Source of the DNA: Gemmatimonadota bacterium
GTDB lineage: Bacteria > Gemmatimonadota > Gemmatimonadetes > Longimicrobiales > Gaopeijiaceae
Assembly: GCA_009841475.1 (NCBI GenBank)
Contig: VXLT01000089.1
Span: 1-46,541 of the forward strand
Length of the DNA stretch: 46,541 nucleotides
Direction of reading: 5' to 3'
A program made the position numbers and the translations under genes. Positions 6,242-45,686 of this stretch are shown one piece after another (the stretch's first letter is position 1; every line of letters starts with the position of its first letter). The notes below the pieces were generated by a model. That model saw only the letters and a list, made by a program, of their open reading frames with translations, did not search any database and was not told the origin of the DNA.

Positions 6242-7780
6242 ATGCGCCCGCTCCTCATCCCCTGCGCTATCGCTGTTGCGCTCGCCGGGTTCCTGATCGA
6301 CCCGGGGGTGCGAGGCACGCCGGGCGCGTTCTGGACCTTCATCGTCGCCGCGGCTGGAATCCTCGCCTGGACCGGCTGGCTGTATTCGTCGCGTCGCAGC
6401 CGCGGCGAGAAGCTGGATCTGGAGGTCGTCATCCGCACGCCCCACTGGATGCAGACGCTCGCGCAGGGGGCGTTGCTCGTGTGGTGGGGCACGTTCGTCG
6501 ACATGGTGCAGCTGTGGGCCCCGATGATCCTCGCGCAGTTGCTGCTGGCGGTCGCGATCGAGGGGCTATTCGCCTGGACCCGGAGGGGCCGCTACGCGAT
6601 CGGCCTGGGCGTCGTCCCGGTGATCTTCAGCGTCAACCTGTTCCTATGGTTCACCGGCCCGTGGTTCTTCTTCCAGTTCGCGATGGTCTTCCTCGTCTAT
6701 GCCGGCAAGGAGTTCATCCGATGGCAGCTGGACGGGCGCTCGCGGCACATCTTCAACCCGTCGGCGCTGGCGCTGTCGGTGGCTGCGGTGGGACTGATCT
6801 TGACGGGCTCAACGGAAATCACCTTCGGAATCGAGATCGCCCAGAGCCAGTTCATCCCGCCGCACATGTTCCTGGTGATCTTCCTGGCGGCCGTCCCCGC
6901 GCAGCTGCTATTCGGGGTGGCGATGATGACGATGCCGGCCGTGCTGACGATCCTCGGGTTCGGGCTGCTCTACCAGTCGGCCACCGGCATCTTCTTCTTC
7001 TACGACGCTTACATCCCGGTGTCGGTGTTCCTGGGACTGCACCTCCTCTTCACCGACCCGGCGACTTCCCCGCGCTCGGACGGCGGCCGGATCATGTTCG
7101 GCCTGATCTACGGCACGGGCGTGGTCGCGAGCGCCGCCATGCTCGACGCCATCGGCGCGCCCAACTTCTACGACAAGCTGCTGCCGGTCCCGATCCTGAA
7201 CATCCTCGCGCCGCGCCTCGACCGCGCGGCGAACTACCTGGGCGAGCGGCTGCCGGCTTTGATCGGCAGGTTGCAGAACCCCGCAACCGCGCGGCGCCGC
7301 TTCGCCACCGTCGGGCTCTGGGCCACGACCTTCACCGCGATGAGCTTCGCGGGCGGGGTCGGCGACAATCACCCCGGCCAGTACTACCCCTTCTGGCGCG
7401 CGGCCTGCGAAGCGGGCAACGACCGCGCCTGCAACTACTCCGGCGTCATGCTGCAGAACTTCTGCGACCTCGGATCCGGCTGGGCGTGCAACGAGTTCGG
7501 CGTGCTGCTGGTGGCGCTGGACCGCGACTTCGTGGGCGCCGTGGGCGAGCTCGAGCGGTCGTGTCGGCTGGAGTACGGGCCGGGGTGCGAGAACCTGCAG
7601 GGGTTGGTCGGCGGCGACGAGCGCTTCGCGGAGGGGGCGGCGGCGTTCCAGCGGGGCGACCCCCCGCCGGCGGAGTGGCCGATTGTGCTGCGCGGCAGCA
7701 AGGGACCGGTAGCGGAGCGTGACCCCGAGGCGCTCCGTGCGCTGGGGTGTGAGCGGGGGTGGGTGGAGCTGGGGTGCTGA
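6242..7780 (+). CDS. RnfD/NqrB-like polytopic membrane protein with C-terminal Cys-rich Sel1-like region
   Basis: Multiple TM segments; FNPSALALS and LLFTDPATSPRSDGGRIMFGLIYGTGV resemble RnfD/NqrB signatures; C-terminus ACEAGNDRACNYSGVML..CDLGSGWACNEFGVLL..SCRLEYGPGCENLQGL resembles Hcp/Sel1 repeats. Confidence 0.65.
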   Translation: MRPLLIPCAIAVALAGFLIDPGVRGTPGAFWTFIVAAAGILAWTGWLYSSRRSRGEKLDLEVVIRTPHWMQTLAQGALLVWWGTFVDMVQLWAPMILAQLLLAVAIEGLFAWTRRGRYAIGLGVVPVIFSVNLFLWFTGPWFFFQFAMVFLVYAGKEFIRWQLDGRSRHIFNPSALALSVAAVGLILTGSTEITFGIEIAQSQFIPPHMFLVIFLAAVPAQLLFGVAMMTMPAVLTILGFGLLYQSATGIFFFYDAYIPVSVFLGLHLLFTDPATSPRSDGGRIMFGLIYGTGVVASAAMLDAIGAPNFYDKLLPVPILNILAPRLDRAANYLGERLPALIGRLQNPATARRRFATVGLWATTFTAMSFAGGVGDNHPGQYYPFWRAACEAGNDRACNYSGVMLQNFCDLGSGWACNEFGVLLVALDRDFVGAVGELERSCRLEYGPGCENLQGLVGGDERFAEGAAAFQRGDPPPAEWPIVLRGSKGPVAERDPEALRALGCERGWVELGC

Positions 7781-7815: not shown

Positions 7816-7854
7816 TGTAAAGCCTACCTTACAGAATGTAAGGTGTTGTTCACA
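7816..7854 (+). promoter_or_regulatory. 39-bp double-palindrome motif, site A (TGTAAAGCCTACCTTACAGAATGTAAGGTGTTGTTCACA)
   Basis: Same spacing and 24/39 positions invariant with sites at 20901-20939 and 42603-42641(-). Inner 8-bp arms ACCTTACA/TGTAAGGT are perfect here. Confidence 0.7.
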
Positions 7855-7976: not shown

Positions 7977-10583
7977 CTAACCCCTCGGCTGTTCCGCCAG
8001 CAGTTCCAGAATGTCCACATTCCACTGGTCGTCGCCGAGCAGGTGCTTCACGAAGTACTCCGCCCGGAGCCAGAACCAGTAGTTGCTCATGTTCCCGAAG
8101 CCGTGGCGCTGGCCGGGGAAGATGAAGAAGTCGAAGCGCTTGTTGGCGCGGATCAGGGCCTGCGCCATGCGGAAGGTCCCGGCATGGTGGACGTTGTTGT
8201 CGACGTCGCCGGTGGTCAGCAGCAGGTGTCCCTTCAGGTTGGCCGCCAGGTCCGAGTTGCGGTCGATGTCGTACTCGAAGCCGGTGACCACGCCCGCGGT
8301 GTCCTTCACCTCCTTGACCCCGTCGTGCTTCTCCGACCAGTTGGCGTTGTAGACGTCGTTGTTGTGGTTCCCCGCTGACGACACGGCCACCTTGAAGAAC
8401 TCGGGGTAGACCAGCATGGCCGCCGTCGACATGAAGCCGCCCCCGGAGTGCCCGTAGATCCCCACCCGGTCGATGTCGATCCAGGGGTGGCGGTCGGCGA
8501 GCTGCTCGAGCCCTACCTTCTTGTCCTCGAGTCCGTAGTCGCGGAGGTTGCCGTAACCGTAGTTGTGGTACCACTTCGAGCGGTCGGGGTGGCCGCCCCG
8601 GTTCCCGATCGTGACCACGATGAAGCCGAACTGCGCGAGTGCCTGCTCGGTCGAGTTGAGCGAGAAGAACTTGGAGACGGATTCCGTCTGCGGCCCGGGG
8701 TAGACGTAGGCGATGATCGGGTACTTCTTCGCCGGATCGAAGTCATACGGCTTGTACATGACGCCGTAGATGTCAGTGACGCCGTCCCCGGCCTTCACCG
8801 AGTATATCTCCGGGAACTGGTAGCCGGCGGCCTCGAGCGCGGACATGTCGGCGGTCTCGAGGTCCATGATCCTACGGCCTGAGGCGTCGAACAGCGCGCT
8901 CGCCGGCGTGGTGTTTACGCGCGAATAATTGTCCACGAAGTAGAGCCCGCCGTCCGACGCGCTGGACCGGTGGTCGAAGTTGCCGGGGTTCAGCAGGGTC
9001 GTGCGGCTGCCGTCCAGCGCCACCCGGTACATGTGCATGTAGTAGGGGTCCTCGCCCTCCTCCCGCGCGTTGCCGCGCACCAGCGCGTAGCCGTCCTCCT
9101 CGTTCACCTCCATCAGCGCGTCCACGTGCCAGGGCCCCTCGGTCAGCCGGTTCCGCACGGTTCCGTCCGGCGCGTACCGGTACAGGTGTGCCCAGCCGTC
9201 CCGCTCCGACCACCAGATCAGGTCGCCGTTTTCGAGCCGCTCCGGGGTGGTGTGCTCGACGTAGGTGTTGAGGCGCTCCTCGATCACGACCGTCACCTCG
9301 CCTGTCGCGGGATCGGCCCGCATCACGTCCACGCGGTGCTGGTTGCGGCTGCGGCGCCAGAAGTAGAGCTCGTCGCTCTGGTCGGAGAGCCACCGGGACT
9401 GGCGGATCGCGTTCGGATCGAAGCCGCGCGGGAAGCTGAAGTCGGTGAAGATCCCCATGCGCTGGTCCTTCCAGCGGTCGTCCTCGATCTGCCTCATCTC
9501 GCGCGCCTCCATGTCGAAGACGTGCAGCGCGACCTGGGTGACGTTCTCCTCGCCCGGCATCTCGTAGCGGTAGCTCTCGAGCTTGGGGCGCGTGTTGCCT
9601 ACGGCGTGGACCACCCAGAGGTGGGCGACCTCGCGGCGGTCGCTCCGGGTCATCGCGAAGTAGCTGCCGTCGTGGGACCAGCTGATCCCCGGCGGCTGGC
9701 GCTTCTTGTGCTCCTCCTCGGTCTCCTCGTCGTTGGCGCCGCGTCCCTGCGACCCCCAGCTGAAGTCCTTCTCGCCATCGGTGGTGAGCTGAATCTCGTC
9801 GACCTCGACCGCGTCTTCCGCCTCCTCCGCCTCGTCGCCCGTCTTGCCGTGCCGCGCTTCACGGATCCGCTCGTAGTCCTCGTAGCTGATCATGTACAGG
9901 TTGAACTCGCGGCTGAAGACCACCCAGGTCGTGTCCGGCGAGATGCTGGCCCAGAACGGGTGGGTCCGCGGCTCCTCGTAGTCCTCGAGTTCGCGGAGCG
10001 TCTGCGTGGCCACGTCGTACTCGAAGTGGTGGACCTTGCGGCGCGTCTGCGGCCTGCGCGGCGCCCGCTGCTCCTCGTCCTCCTGGTCCTCCTCGACCTC
10101 TTCCTCGTCATCCTCCTCGACCACCTCGTCCTGCGACGACGTCACCTCGAACTGGATCGTGCCCTCGTTGATGAAGCGGATCCCGCGGATCGGGAGGTGC
10201 TGCGCATCCCACGGGTCGAGCGTGATGCGGGTCAGCTCGGCGGCGATGCGGTCGTTGTCGAAGATCTCGGTCTTCGTGCCGCGCTCCGGGTCGACCAGGT
10301 AGTAGTGCGTGCCGCCGGAGTTCTCCCACTGGTACCAGAACTTCTGAGTGTCCCCGACCCACCGGGGCTGCACACTGGTCGAGTGGAGGAGGTCCCCGAT
10401 CCTGTAGGGGGCGAAGCGGGCGGCCAGCTCGTAGTTCGCCGACCCGGGGCCCATGACCGGGATCGAGCCGGGCTCCTGGGCGGCGGCCGAATCGGCGGTG
10501 GGGGCCAGGGTCAGGGCCATCGCCGCGAAGGTGAAGGCGAAGAGGGCCGTCCGTGTGATGGTGGAGGTCGTGCGGGGAGTCAT
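7977..10583 (-). CDS. S9 family peptidase, DPP-IV-like (ORF ..10676 trimmed to ATG 10583)
   Basis: Signal peptide; DPPIV_N-like propeller; catalytic GIYGHSGGGFMS, Asp in TGDVDNNVH, His in FPGQRHGF. Confidence 0.9.
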   Translation of the reverse strand: MTPRTTSTITRTALFAFTFAAMALTLAPTADSAAAQEPGSIPVMGPGSANYELAARFAPYRIGDLLHSTSVQPRWVGDTQKFWYQWENSGGTHYYLVDPERGTKTEIFDNDRIAAELTRITLDPWDAQHLPIRGIRFINEGTIQFEVTSSQDEVVEEDDEEEVEEDQEDEEQRAPRRPQTRRKVHHFEYDVATQTLRELEDYEEPRTHPFWASISPDTTWVVFSREFNLYMISYEDYERIREARHGKTGDEAEEAEDAVEVDEIQLTTDGEKDFSWGSQGRGANDEETEEEHKKRQPPGISWSHDGSYFAMTRSDRREVAHLWVVHAVGNTRPKLESYRYEMPGEENVTQVALHVFDMEAREMRQIEDDRWKDQRMGIFTDFSFPRGFDPNAIRQSRWLSDQSDELYFWRRSRNQHRVDVMRADPATGEVTVVIEERLNTYVEHTTPERLENGDLIWWSERDGWAHLYRYAPDGTVRNRLTEGPWHVDALMEVNEEDGYALVRGNAREEGEDPYYMHMYRVALDGSRTTLLNPGNFDHRSSASDGGLYFVDNYSRVNTTPASALFDASGRRIMDLETADMSALEAAGYQFPEIYSVKAGDGVTDIYGVMYKPYDFDPAKKYPIIAYVYPGPQTESVSKFFSLNSTEQALAQFGFIVVTIGNRGGHPDRSKWYHNYGYGNLRDYGLEDKKVGLEQLADRHPWIDIDRVGIYGHSGGGFMSTAAMLVYPEFFKVAVSSAGNHNNDVYNANWSEKHDGVKEVKDTAGVVTGFEYDIDRNSDLAANLKGHLLLTTGDVDNNVHHAGTFRMAQALIRANKRFDFFIFPGQRHGFGNMSNYWFWLRAEYFVKHLLGDDQWNVDILELLAEQPRG

Positions 10584-19392: not shown

Positions 19393-20880
19393 ATGAGAAC
19401 ACCGGGAGTCTGCGTGTCCGCCGTCCTTGCGGCGTTCGCCCTCGGTTGCGCCGCTCAGGAACAACGGGAAGCCGCTGCCGGTCCCCCCAGTCTCTCGGGG
19501 AACTGGGCAGGCACGGCGGACGCCGGCGCCGTCCAACTGGAGCTGCGCCTGGTCCTGGCCGAAGAGGAGGGCTTGGTGAGTGCCCCCGTGACCTCGCTGG
19601 CACGGTGGAACTGGGAAACCCACCGGACCGAGAGGTTGTCATTCCGGCTCGGTGCCCCTGTCGTGACCGTAAGCGGAGACACGATCTCGGTTCCAATGTT
19701 GGACTTCGAAGCATCCTACACGGGCACCTGGTCACAGAATGACGACAGGATCAGCGGCACCTTCACCCAGGCCGCCGAGACCTTCCCGCTTGAGCTTGAA
19801 CGCTCGTCCGAGGATGAGGCCGAGACGAGACGGCCCCAGACCCCCGAGGAGCCCTTCCCTTACGCTGCAGAGGACGTGACATACAGCAATCCGGATGGCG
19901 GACACTCGCTGGCGGCCACCCTTGCGCGCCCCACGGACGGCGGTCCGTTCCCGGCGGTGATCCTGATCTCGGGGTCGGGTCAATATGAAAGGAGCCGAAC
20001 CGGGGATGGACACGATGCGTTTCTCGTGCTGGCCGACTACCTCACCCGGCGGGGGATCGCGGTCCTTCGTTACGACGACCGCGGCGTGGGTGAATCGACG
20101 GGGGACTTCTCGACCGCCACCACAGAGGACTTCGCCTCCGACGTACTGGCCGGAGTTACGTACCTCACGACCCGCGACGATGTCGACCCCGGCAAGATCG
20201 GCCTGGCCGGCCAGTCCGAGGGCGGGCTGATCGCGCCGATGGCGGCGGTCCAGTCCCCCGATGTCAGCTACATCGTCCTCTTGGCTGGCCCGGGGGTGAA
20301 CGGGGAACGAATCTCCAGTGCGCAGATGGAGTTGCGTGCCCGTGCGAACGGTGCCTCCGAGGAGGCGATCGCCGAGATACTGCAGCGGCAGACCGCCATA
20401 AACGAGATCCTCATGTCCGAGGCCGATCCCGAACGTTCGCAAGAGGCGATCGAGGCGATCATTCGAACGCGGTTCGGGAAAGCGAGCGTTCAGGAACGGC
20501 TGCTGTACAGCACCACGGACGACACCTCGCTTGCGATGGTCGTGTCGGAGGAGGTGCGGAGGGTCAACACCCCGTGGGGGCGCTACTTTCTGACCTACGA
20601 GCCGGCGCCGACGCTCGAAAAGGTGAGCGTGCCGGTCCTGGCGATCAACGGAACCAGGGACCTGTATGTCCCCCACGAGGAGAACCTGCGCGAGATCGAA
20701 GCGGCACTGAAGCGCGGCGGCAACACCCGCTACGAGATCCACGCACTTCCGGGTATCAACCACTTCCTACAGCATGCGGAGACCGGCACCGCGCGCGAAT
20801 CCGAAACGATCGAGGAGACAATCGCGGTCGAGGTTCTGGAGCTGGTCGGGGACTGGATCGTGCGGGTGACGGGCGGTTGA
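19393..20880 (+). CDS. Alpha/beta hydrolase (secreted, S9/esterase-like), paralogue 1
   Basis: GQSEGG nucleophile elbow, RYDDRGVGESTGDFSTAT, signal-like N-terminus; ATG 19393 or TTG 19387 overlapping dnaE stop. Confidence 0.85.
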   Translation: MRTPGVCVSAVLAAFALGCAAQEQREAAAGPPSLSGNWAGTADAGAVQLELRLVLAEEEGLVSAPVTSLARWNWETHRTERLSFRLGAPVVTVSGDTISVPMLDFEASYTGTWSQNDDRISGTFTQAAETFPLELERSSEDEAETRRPQTPEEPFPYAAEDVTYSNPDGGHSLAATLARPTDGGPFPAVILISGSGQYERSRTGDGHDAFLVLADYLTRRGIAVLRYDDRGVGESTGDFSTATTEDFASDVLAGVTYLTTRDDVDPGKIGLAGQSEGGLIAPMAAVQSPDVSYIVLLAGPGVNGERISSAQMELRARANGASEEAIAEILQRQTAINEILMSEADPERSQEAIEAIIRTRFGKASVQERLLYSTTDDTSLAMVVSEEVRRVNTPWGRYFLTYEPAPTLEKVSVPVLAINGTRDLYVPHEENLREIEAALKRGGNTRYEIHALPGINHFLQHAETGTARESETIEETIAVEVLELVGDWIVRVTGG

Positions 20881-20900: not shown

Positions 20901-20939
20901 TGTAAAATTTACATTACGAAATGTTAGGTACGCTTTACA
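20901..20939 (+). promoter_or_regulatory. 39-bp double-palindrome motif, site B (TGTAAAATTTACATTACGAAATGTTAGGTACGCTTTACA)
   Basis: AT-rich island between two co-directional hydrolase genes, 46 nt before ATG 20986; same spacing as sites A and C. Confidence 0.75.
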
Positions 20940-20985: not shown

Positions 20986-22443
20986 ATGAAGACCCTGCTG
21001 GCCTGCATGACCCTCACTCTCGCCACCCTGGCCATCGGCGTTGGCGCTGCACCCACCACCGCCCAGGAACCCGAACCGGACACCGCGGGCTTCGTCGGAA
21101 ACTGGATGGGAACCCTGGACGTCGGCGCCGCGCAACTCCGCCTGCGCTTCGTCATCGCCGAGACCGAAGGCGCGCTGGGCGCCACCCTGTACTCCGTGGA
21201 CCAGGGCAACGCGCAGATCCAGGTCGCGGAGACAACCGTGTCCGGCGACACGATCTCCATGTCCATGCCGATGGTCGGCGCATCCTTCCGCGGCACCCTC
21301 TCCGCCGAAGACGGGAACATCACCGGCACCTTCACCCAGGCGGGCCAGTCCTTCCCGCTCGTCCTTGAGCGCGTGCCCGACGACGAAGGCGAAGTTACGC
21401 TGCGGCGCCCCCAGAACCCCGAGGAGCCCTACCCGTACCTTGCCGAAGACGTCACCTACGTCAACCCGGAGGGCGGCCACACCCTGGCGGGCACCTTCAC
21501 CCGGCCCGCATCCGGAGGCCCCTTCCCGTCCGTGATCCTCATCTCGGGTTCGGGTCCCCAGGACCGGGACGAAGCCCTCATGGGACACCGCCCGTTCCTC
21601 GTGCTGGCCGACCACCTCACCCGGCGCGGCATCGCCGTCCTGCGCTACGACGACCGCGGCGTCGGCGAATCGACCGGCGACTTCGGCTCGGCGACCTCAC
21701 AGGACTTCGCCTCCGACGCGCTGGCCGCCGTCGCCTACCTCAAGACCCGCGACGACGTCGACCCCGGCGAGATCGGCCTCGCGGGCCACTCGGAGGGCGG
21801 CATCATCGCCCCCATGGCGGCGGTCGCATCCCCCGACGTCAGCTACATCGTCCTGATGGCCGCTACCGGGGTGAACGGCGAGCGCATCCTCTACGCCCAG
21901 GCCGCGCTGATCGCCCGTGCTGCGGGCGCCCCCGAGGAGGCGGTCGCGGCAAACCGGGAGCAGCAGCGAGCCATCTTCGAGGTCCTCAAGCGAGAGCCCG
22001 ATCCCGGGCGTGCGGGCGAGGCGATCACGGCGATCGTCAGGGCGGGGCTCGAGCGCGCCAACCCAGGAGGGGACACGGCCTACGACGACGCGATGCAGCA
22101 GGCCGTCACGGCCCAGGTGCGGCAGGTCAACAACCCCTGGTTCCGCTACTTCCTGACCTACGAGCCGGCGCCCATGCTCGAGAGGGTGACCGTCCCCGTT
22201 CTGGCGATCAACGGCGAAAAGGACCTGCAAGTCCCCTACGAGGAGAACCTGCGCGAGATCGAGGCGGCGCTGCGGCGCGGCGGCAACACCCGCTTCGAGA
22301 CCCACGCGCTCCCAGGCCTCAACCACCTCTTCCAGCACGCGCAAACCGGTGCCCCGAGCGAATACCAGTCGATCGAAGAAACCTGGTCGGTCGAAGCGAT
22401 GGAGCTGGTCGCCGACTGGATTCTGAGGACGGTGGGCGGGTAG
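20986..22443 (+). CDS. Alpha/beta hydrolase, paralogue 2 (ORF from 20956; signal peptide starts at ATG 20986)
   Basis: MKTLLACMTLTLATLAIGVGAAPTTAQ signal; GHSEGG; collinear with the preceding gene over its full length. Confidence 0.87.
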   Translation: MKTLLACMTLTLATLAIGVGAAPTTAQEPEPDTAGFVGNWMGTLDVGAAQLRLRFVIAETEGALGATLYSVDQGNAQIQVAETTVSGDTISMSMPMVGASFRGTLSAEDGNITGTFTQAGQSFPLVLERVPDDEGEVTLRRPQNPEEPYPYLAEDVTYVNPEGGHTLAGTFTRPASGGPFPSVILISGSGPQDRDEALMGHRPFLVLADHLTRRGIAVLRYDDRGVGESTGDFGSATSQDFASDALAAVAYLKTRDDVDPGEIGLAGHSEGGIIAPMAAVASPDVSYIVLMAATGVNGERILYAQAALIARAAGAPEEAVAANREQQRAIFEVLKREPDPGRAGEAITAIVRAGLERANPGGDTAYDDAMQQAVTAQVRQVNNPWFRYFLTYEPAPMLERVTVPVLAINGEKDLQVPYEENLREIEAALRRGGNTRFETHALPGLNHLFQHAQTGAPSEYQSIEETWSVEAMELVADWILRTVGG

Positions 22444-38741: not shown

Positions 38742-44393
<5,652 letters not shown>

Positions 44394-44408: not shown

Positions 44409-45686
44409 ATGCTCACTCAACCCCAACGACGAATGCTCACGCTGACCGGGTTCTCCAGCGACAACCGGAGCCGCTTCCCGACATGGCGGCGACCCGCACT
44501 TCCGCAACCGGCGCGACACCTGCCGTGCGCAATCACCGCTGCCGCGCTTCTGGCCACCGGCGCAGTGCCGGCGGATGCGCGCGCGCAGGCCGTCGTCGAG
44601 AACACGCTCGCGTCGGGCTGGACGACCACTCCCGAGTGGACCCTCGAAGAGGATCTGCGGATCTGGGGGCCGCCCGACGGGTACCTGGGCGACGTCGACG
44701 CCGTGGCGGCCGATTCCCGGGGCAACATCTACATCCTGGACGGCACGTCGCAGGAGATCCAGGTCTTCGACGCCGAGGGCGGTCACTTGCGGACGCTCGG
44801 CGGACGGGGACAGGGGCCGGGGGAGTTCCGGGAAGCGCTGGGACCCGCCATCGCGCTGGGGGACACGCTGTGGGTGGCGGACGGGCTGGCGCCGCGCTAT
44901 TCGATCTTCGCGCCGGACGGTACGTTCATCCGTACGAGGGTGCGCCGGATGGCGTCGGGCATGCTCACGGAGCGTTGCACGATCCCCCCGGACGGCAGCT
45001 ACATGGAGTGGTGGACGCGTTTGCCGAGGGTGGAGAGGAGCGAGGACATGGACAACAACGACCTTCGCCATCACCATCCGATCCGGGTATCGGCCGACGG
45101 GGGGAAGCAGGACACGCTGCCGTACCTGGAGTTCACCCGACAGCTGGCCGATCTGCCGTCGGTGGGCAGCCGGCGGCCGGTCTGGTTCGGACCAACTCTC
45201 CAGAGGGCCCTGGGTTGCAGGGACGATGTCTGGTTCGCGCCCAGCAACGAGTACCGGGTCTACAGGCGCACGCTCGCCGGTGACACAACCGTGGTGTTCA
45301 CTCTGGAGGGCGTCAGGCCGGCGGCTGTCGACGAGGACGACCGCGACGAGGTGCGGGCCACCTTCGAACGCTACCCCGAACTCGCGTCCGCTTCCGCATT
45401 GATGGCGGACCACCTGCGAGCCCTGCCGGAGAACAAACCGGTCATCGCCGGCCTCTTCGTGGATGGCGCAGGCCACGTCTTCGTGGTCCCGGAAACCTCG
45501 CGGGTCGACGCGGGCACGGCCATCGACGTATTCCGGGAAGACGGGGTCTTCCTGGGGCGGGCCGCGGTGCCGGAGGCGGTCAGGGTCAACCCCGGCAGGG
45601 CGTACGCCACCGGGGACTACCTCCTCTTCGCGGGCGAGAGCGACGCGGGGGAACCCTACGTGACCCGGCTGAGGATTCGGCGATGA
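44409..45686 (+). CDS. 6-bladed beta-propeller (NHL-type) exported protein; start ATG 44409 or 44433
   Basis: DVDAVAADSRGNIYILDGTSQEIQVFDAEGGHLRTLGGRGQGPGEFREALGPAIALGDTLWVADG repeats. Confidence 0.8.
   Translation: MLTQPQRRMLTLTGFSSDNRSRFPTWRRPALPQPARHLPCAITAAALLATGAVPADARAQAVVENTLASGWTTTPEWTLEEDLRIWGPPDGYLGDVDAVAADSRGNIYILDGTSQEIQVFDAEGGHLRTLGGRGQGPGEFREALGPAIALGDTLWVADGLAPRYSIFAPDGTFIRTRVRRMASGMLTERCTIPPDGSYMEWWTRLPRVERSEDMDNNDLRHHHPIRVSADGGKQDTLPYLEFTRQLADLPSVGSRRPVWFGPTLQRALGCRDDVWFAPSNEYRVYRRTLAGDTTVVFTLEGVRPAAVDEDDRDEVRATFERYPELASASALMADHLRALPENKPVIAGLFVDGAGHVFVVPETSRVDAGTAIDVFREDGVFLGRAAVPEAVRVNPGRAYATGDYLLFAGESDAGEPYVTRLRIRR

Follow-up and report, generated by a model that had tools for sequence, protein, structure and literature searches.

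A 39-bp double palindrome dispersed through a Gemmatimonadota genus is probably the operator of an autoregulated regulator encoded at the head of modABC

Three copies of a 39-bp double palindrome occur in the stretch of Gemmatimonadota DNA analysed here (46,541 bp, hereafter the window), which raises the question of what recognises this sequence and why it recurs beside unrelated genes. Site A (7816-7854, forward strand; boxes 7816-7833 and 7837-7854) is located between an ORF of 512 aa without Pfam match (6242-7780, forward) and a DPPIV_N/Peptidase_S9 gene (7977-10583, reverse), both directed at the site. Site B (20901-20939, forward; boxes 20901-20918 and 20922-20939) lies 46 bp before the ATG of an alpha/beta hydrolase gene (20986-22443, forward), and thereby sits between tandem paralogs, the other hydrolase gene being at 19414-20880. 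Site C (42603-42641, reverse; boxes 42624-42641 and 42603-42620) separates a sodium:solute symporter (SSF) gene upstream (42716-44245, reverse) from a GH2 beta-galactosidase gene downstream (38742-42557, reverse). All three were recovered at the positions and on the strands given by the earlier note, and they align without gaps, with 24 of 39 positions common to the three. One correction concerns site A, which is upstream of neither neighbour because its flanking genes are convergent.

Pooling of the sites gave the general form TGTMA-N8-TKACA-N3-TGTMA-N8-TKACA, i.e. two 18-bp boxes 3 bp apart, each box reading TGTMAWSY-N2-RSWTKACA with the half-site TGTMAWSY. The dyad symmetry about position 20 was retrieved as first described (12-13 of 19 pairs matched); the resolution into two 18-bp palindromes is clear in the pooled consensus and weaker in single sites (3-6 of 9 pairs). 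The host genome (G000, a Gemmatimonadota MAG of 4.18 Mb in 369 contigs, whose genomic context was read from contig pieces) was scanned with the original three-site consensus at up to 3 mismatches. This yielded 38 forward and 36 reverse matches, which correspond to 63 distinct places as near-palindromic sites match twice, and the reversed-pattern control gave 0 matches under the same threshold. Chance is therefore excluded as the origin of the matches, and the expected genome-wide enrichment is positive. With the general form at up to 2 mismatches, 127 occurrences were counted in the host genome, 29-265 copies in 17 of the 18 sampled genomes of the genus (the eighteenth, G008, has 0) and 0-5 copies in each of the 280 remaining genomes from the phylum, the control always being 0. 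Exact matches among 84,980 species were restricted to six Gemmatimonadota MAG contigs. On the complete chromosome G021, 180 sites were found at up to 3 mismatches; a macrodomain-like clustering was rejected there, as sites with 0-1 mismatch are uniformly distributed along the chromosome (KS p 0.50).

The restriction to non-coding DNA that had been anticipated was borne out: with genes predicted by a simple codon-usage caller written for this analysis, 87% of the 1.63 Mb of DNA examined from the genus is coding, yet 81 of 83 sites fall between genes. Between the close relatives G009 and G006, four orthologous sites show 0 changes at 64 invariant core positions versus 15 at 76 spacer positions; these changes were counted by eye on four flank-verified pairs (pairing by spacer similarity alone gave some doubtful pairs), and as the sites were found by motif match some ascertainment remains in the count. 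Phylogenetic footprinting was likewise positive. The offset of site B before the hydrolase is kept in 8 of 10 aligned orthologs, with diverged spacers and some diverged half-site letters, the site being missing in G011 and G022; the ortholog of site A is present in G005 and absent in the same two genomes. More generally, many sites are turned over between species, with presence/absence differences. The flanks of sites A, B and C and of most other copies in the genome are unrelated, and cores are kept while spacers have drifted, which agrees with the view that conservation does not stem from simple duplication.

An RNA or single-strand hairpin, e.g. a terminator, could equally be palindromic, intergenic and sometimes located between convergent genes. 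Across 82 non-redundant sites, however, no Watson-Crick covariation of spacer positions was detected, only scattered weak signals, and we consider a hairpin highly improbable. Because the sites are intergenic, keep their cores while spacers drift and lack hairpin covariation, the 39-mer is a predicted protein-binding site; the earlier note's reading in this sense, with a pair of 18-bp palindromes set 21 bp from each other, is supported by intergenic placement, core conservation and enrichment.

Part of the copies are carried by a mobile element. About 14-20 of the 63 sites of the host genome belong to an element of about 250 bp with inverted ends GCAGYCCGTGGACAAA, which is usually flanked by TA and has the motif some 80 bp inside one of its ends (loci L015, L022, L025, L030, L034, L035, L046, L047, L056, L059 and L064). 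This carrier has both features that define a MITE, i.e. terminal inverted repeats and a clean insertion relative to an empty site (filled and empty sites compared in G011 against G022). Three motif copies at an exact spacing of 249 bp were also observed in G021 (C1:207279, 207528 and 207777), probably a tandem MITE array. It could thus be argued that the motif belongs to a MITE- or REP-like interspersed repeat without regulatory role, whose core would be conserved owing to its youth or to a need of mobility: copy number ranges from 0 to 265 across genomes with presence/absence polymorphism, and the turnover of many sites is what selfish DNA would display. Yet most sites, the window's three included, have unrelated flanks, which led us to reject a pure MITE origin; spacers have drifted around unchanged cores, and a one-copy form precedes a regulator gene in genera devoid of the repeat. 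A repeat devoid of regulatory function hence appears unlikely.

This regulator gene provides a candidate for the binding protein. Motif-like sites, which are rare in other families, stand there directly upstream of small XRE genes, and the regulator was found by searching the genus with such an XRE protein. A single clear ortholog of about 370 aa is present in 22 of 23 genomes of the genus, G008 having none, and in each of these 22 genomes the motif is located 32-110 bp before its ATG (1-2 mismatches of 20). In the host genome the gene (C112:14544-15647, reverse) is at the head of the modABC operon, in the order GPP34 - regulator - modABC; the succession regulator, modA, modB, modC was seen in G000, G009 and G021, and matches to modA (TIGR01256) and modB (TIGR02141) lie downstream of the regulator ortholog in the group g18. 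Two Pfam domains were identified, i.e. an N-terminal HTH_3 (2.3e-13) and a C-terminal PBP_like (PF12727, 6.9e-43). PDB profile matches of the HTH to CylR2 and to the 434 and P22 repressors assign it to the Cro/C1-like HTH_3 fold, and C.AhdI is among its sequence matches. The AlphaFold model (pLDDT 87.7) combines the HTH with a PBP fold, with matches to solute-binding proteins and LysR effector domains, including molybdenum-binding proteins. Whereas the earlier note named no binding factor, this HTH_3 and PBP_like protein, with the motif before its own ATG in 22 of 22 genomes, is now a strong candidate.

Regulator orthologs occur widely across the family. In several genomes of other genera with hardly any further copies of the motif, one copy stands just upstream of the orthologous gene, with 0 (G182), 1 (G125), 3 (G159) or 4 mismatches (G161 and G181). 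Upstream of the regulator in several g18 genomes (G106, G081 and G238) no good operator was found, the best candidate having 7 mismatches; G106 and G238 contain a few motif sites elsewhere in the genome. Outside the family, loci L202, L204 and L206 of other Gemmatimonadota families consist of operons encoding a protein of about 135-150 aa and an XRE protein of 64-73 aa, preceded at about 30-170 bp by an operator of similar 18+3+18 layout.

G008, the only genome of the genus without the regulator, is also the one with 0 sites. At L267:6227-7799 its GPP34 gene adjoins an intact modA, the regulator gene and its operator being missing in between, a natural deletion. A mod tree rooted with outgroups nests G008 among site-rich species (support 92.9/88), and the unrooted tree gives its clade a support of 99.4/99. 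As G008 thus falls within the genus, the simplest account is a joint loss of the regulator and the sites. This co-loss concerns a single lineage and does not by itself name the factor, because G008 probably lost other genes as well.

Taking motif, counts, distribution, conservation, and both co-occurrence and co-loss with the regulator together, we consider it likely that the 39-mer is the operator of this autoregulated HTH_3 and PBP_like regulator, multiplied across the genus. In the model that we infer, each 18-bp palindrome would be bound by one HTH dimer, and the centre-to-centre distance of 21 bp would set two dimers on the same face of the DNA, able to bind together and perhaps cooperatively. 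The ancestral role would be the control of the regulator-mod operon, presumably in response to metal, and sister genera, whose genomes have one or a few sites each, would have retained it. Within the genus, the operator would have been multiplied to 29-265 intergenic copies, partly inside the MITE, and selection would maintain the dispersed copies only in genomes that possess the regulator.

A similar box geometry could also point to another known regulator class, since box length and spacing closely match those of TyrR, whose box is TGTAAA-N6-TTTACA, and of ArgR, which uses paired 18-bp boxes 3 bp apart. Neither family was found among the genes beside the sites, however, and it is the HTH_3-PBP_like gene that carries the operator in 22 of 22 genomes and shares the loss in G008. 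An operator of the TyrR or ArgR class is accordingly very unlikely.

The proposed HTH_3-PBP_like regulator resembles known systems in part. A literature search for an XRE-PBP_like molybdate regulator returned only a citation of TaoR, a Mo/W regulator with an HTH and a PBP-like domain (Rajeev et al. 2019, as cited in PMC11980592). As in this type, the protein described here joins an N-terminal HTH to a C-terminal PBP_like domain and is linked to molybdate transport genes. In PMC11980592, TaoR-like proteins are described with HTH_17 plus TOBE and TaoR is cited as the regulator of one enzyme, whereas the present regulator matches HTH_3/HTH_31 with no TOBE in Pfam and would face up to 265 sites. 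With the controller proteins of restriction-modification systems, such as C.Csp231I (PMC4321490) and C.AhdI, it shares an XRE-type HTH and, as predicted here, autoregulation in which two dimers occupy a pair of palindromic operators. The sequence and spacing of the operator differ from those of C.Csp231I (CTAAG-N5-CTTAG, 18-bp spacer; PMC4321490), and no restriction-modification genes were seen at the regulator locus. As for the carrier, the Correia elements of Neisseria are repeat elements able to bind IHF (PMC2649163); the MITE is comparable in being a small interspersed element near genes that carries the (here predicted) binding site of a host protein, but most sites lie outside it and the protein would be a regulator of local type instead of IHF.

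What the dispersed copies do is the least certain part. In an ordinary large regulon each site would be the promoter operator of the adjacent gene, for the same or another repressor, in line with the distance of the site from the hydrolase, which is constant in most orthologs, and with the many sites located 20-100 bp before a start codon. Free-standing sites, however, show no promoter bias, their class following intergenic space: 33 are in tandem, 11 in divergent and 13 in convergent gaps, whereas gap length predicts 33.7, 16.1 and 7.2, and the surplus in convergent gaps is weak (p 0.03 by length, 0.09 by count). Conservation between species was observed for some sites in convergent gaps (G018/G007), and MITE copies of G021 lie between rplL and rpoB, rpoB and rpoC, and tuf and rpsJ (gene names assigned by eye from protein sequences). 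We regard a conventional large regulon as somewhat unlikely. An avoidance of divergent gaps, an impression gained from 800 kb of one genome, was rejected, having disappeared in 1.6 Mb.

Genes beside the sites are functionally mixed, i.e. peptidases, sugar and amino-acid catabolism, a TonB receptor and a transporter. The proposal that the sites mark promoters of exported hydrolases and transporters was therefore not supported, the neighbours being mixed and convergent gaps at least as frequent as expected. A molybdoenzyme regulon was rejected on the same mixture, molybdenum genes being involved in only one case (coxM/coxG). Separately, a cluster of 13 related proteins was noted near motif sites (loci L011, L026, L035, L038, L041, L048 and L058 of G000, and 44433-45686 in the window); the single Pfam-matching member corresponds to DUF5128, a 6-bladed beta-propeller.

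Returning to the operator of the modABC-linked regulator, we tentatively suggest, with somewhat less than even confidence, that its dispersed copies form a genome-wide binding network not confined to promoters. The output of such a network might, at a similarly guarded level, be to modulate transcription or chromosome structure broadly, or to buffer the regulator. A more doubtful extension is that a molybdate-operon repressor turned into a genus-specific, chromosome-wide nucleoid-like DNA-binding protein, its operator dispersed partly by the MITE and uncoupled from metal sensing. The uncoupling is suggested because the regulator of G010 (L213:913-1698 and L271:3484-4269, both reverse) has lost about 100 aa in frame, i.e. 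most of its PBP_like domain, and G010 nevertheless has the most sites of all sampled genomes of the genus (265 in 2.8 Mb).

The motif thus gains a candidate binder, and the operator of a local metal regulator has apparently given rise to a binding network spanning the genus. This is also a warning against taking every conserved intergenic site of transcription-factor type for a promoter operator. These genomes offer a natural series, from a local regulator with one site in sister genera, through a network of 29-265 sites in the genus, to the loss of both protein and sites in G008, which would let the growth and collapse of bacterial regulatory networks be tested directly.
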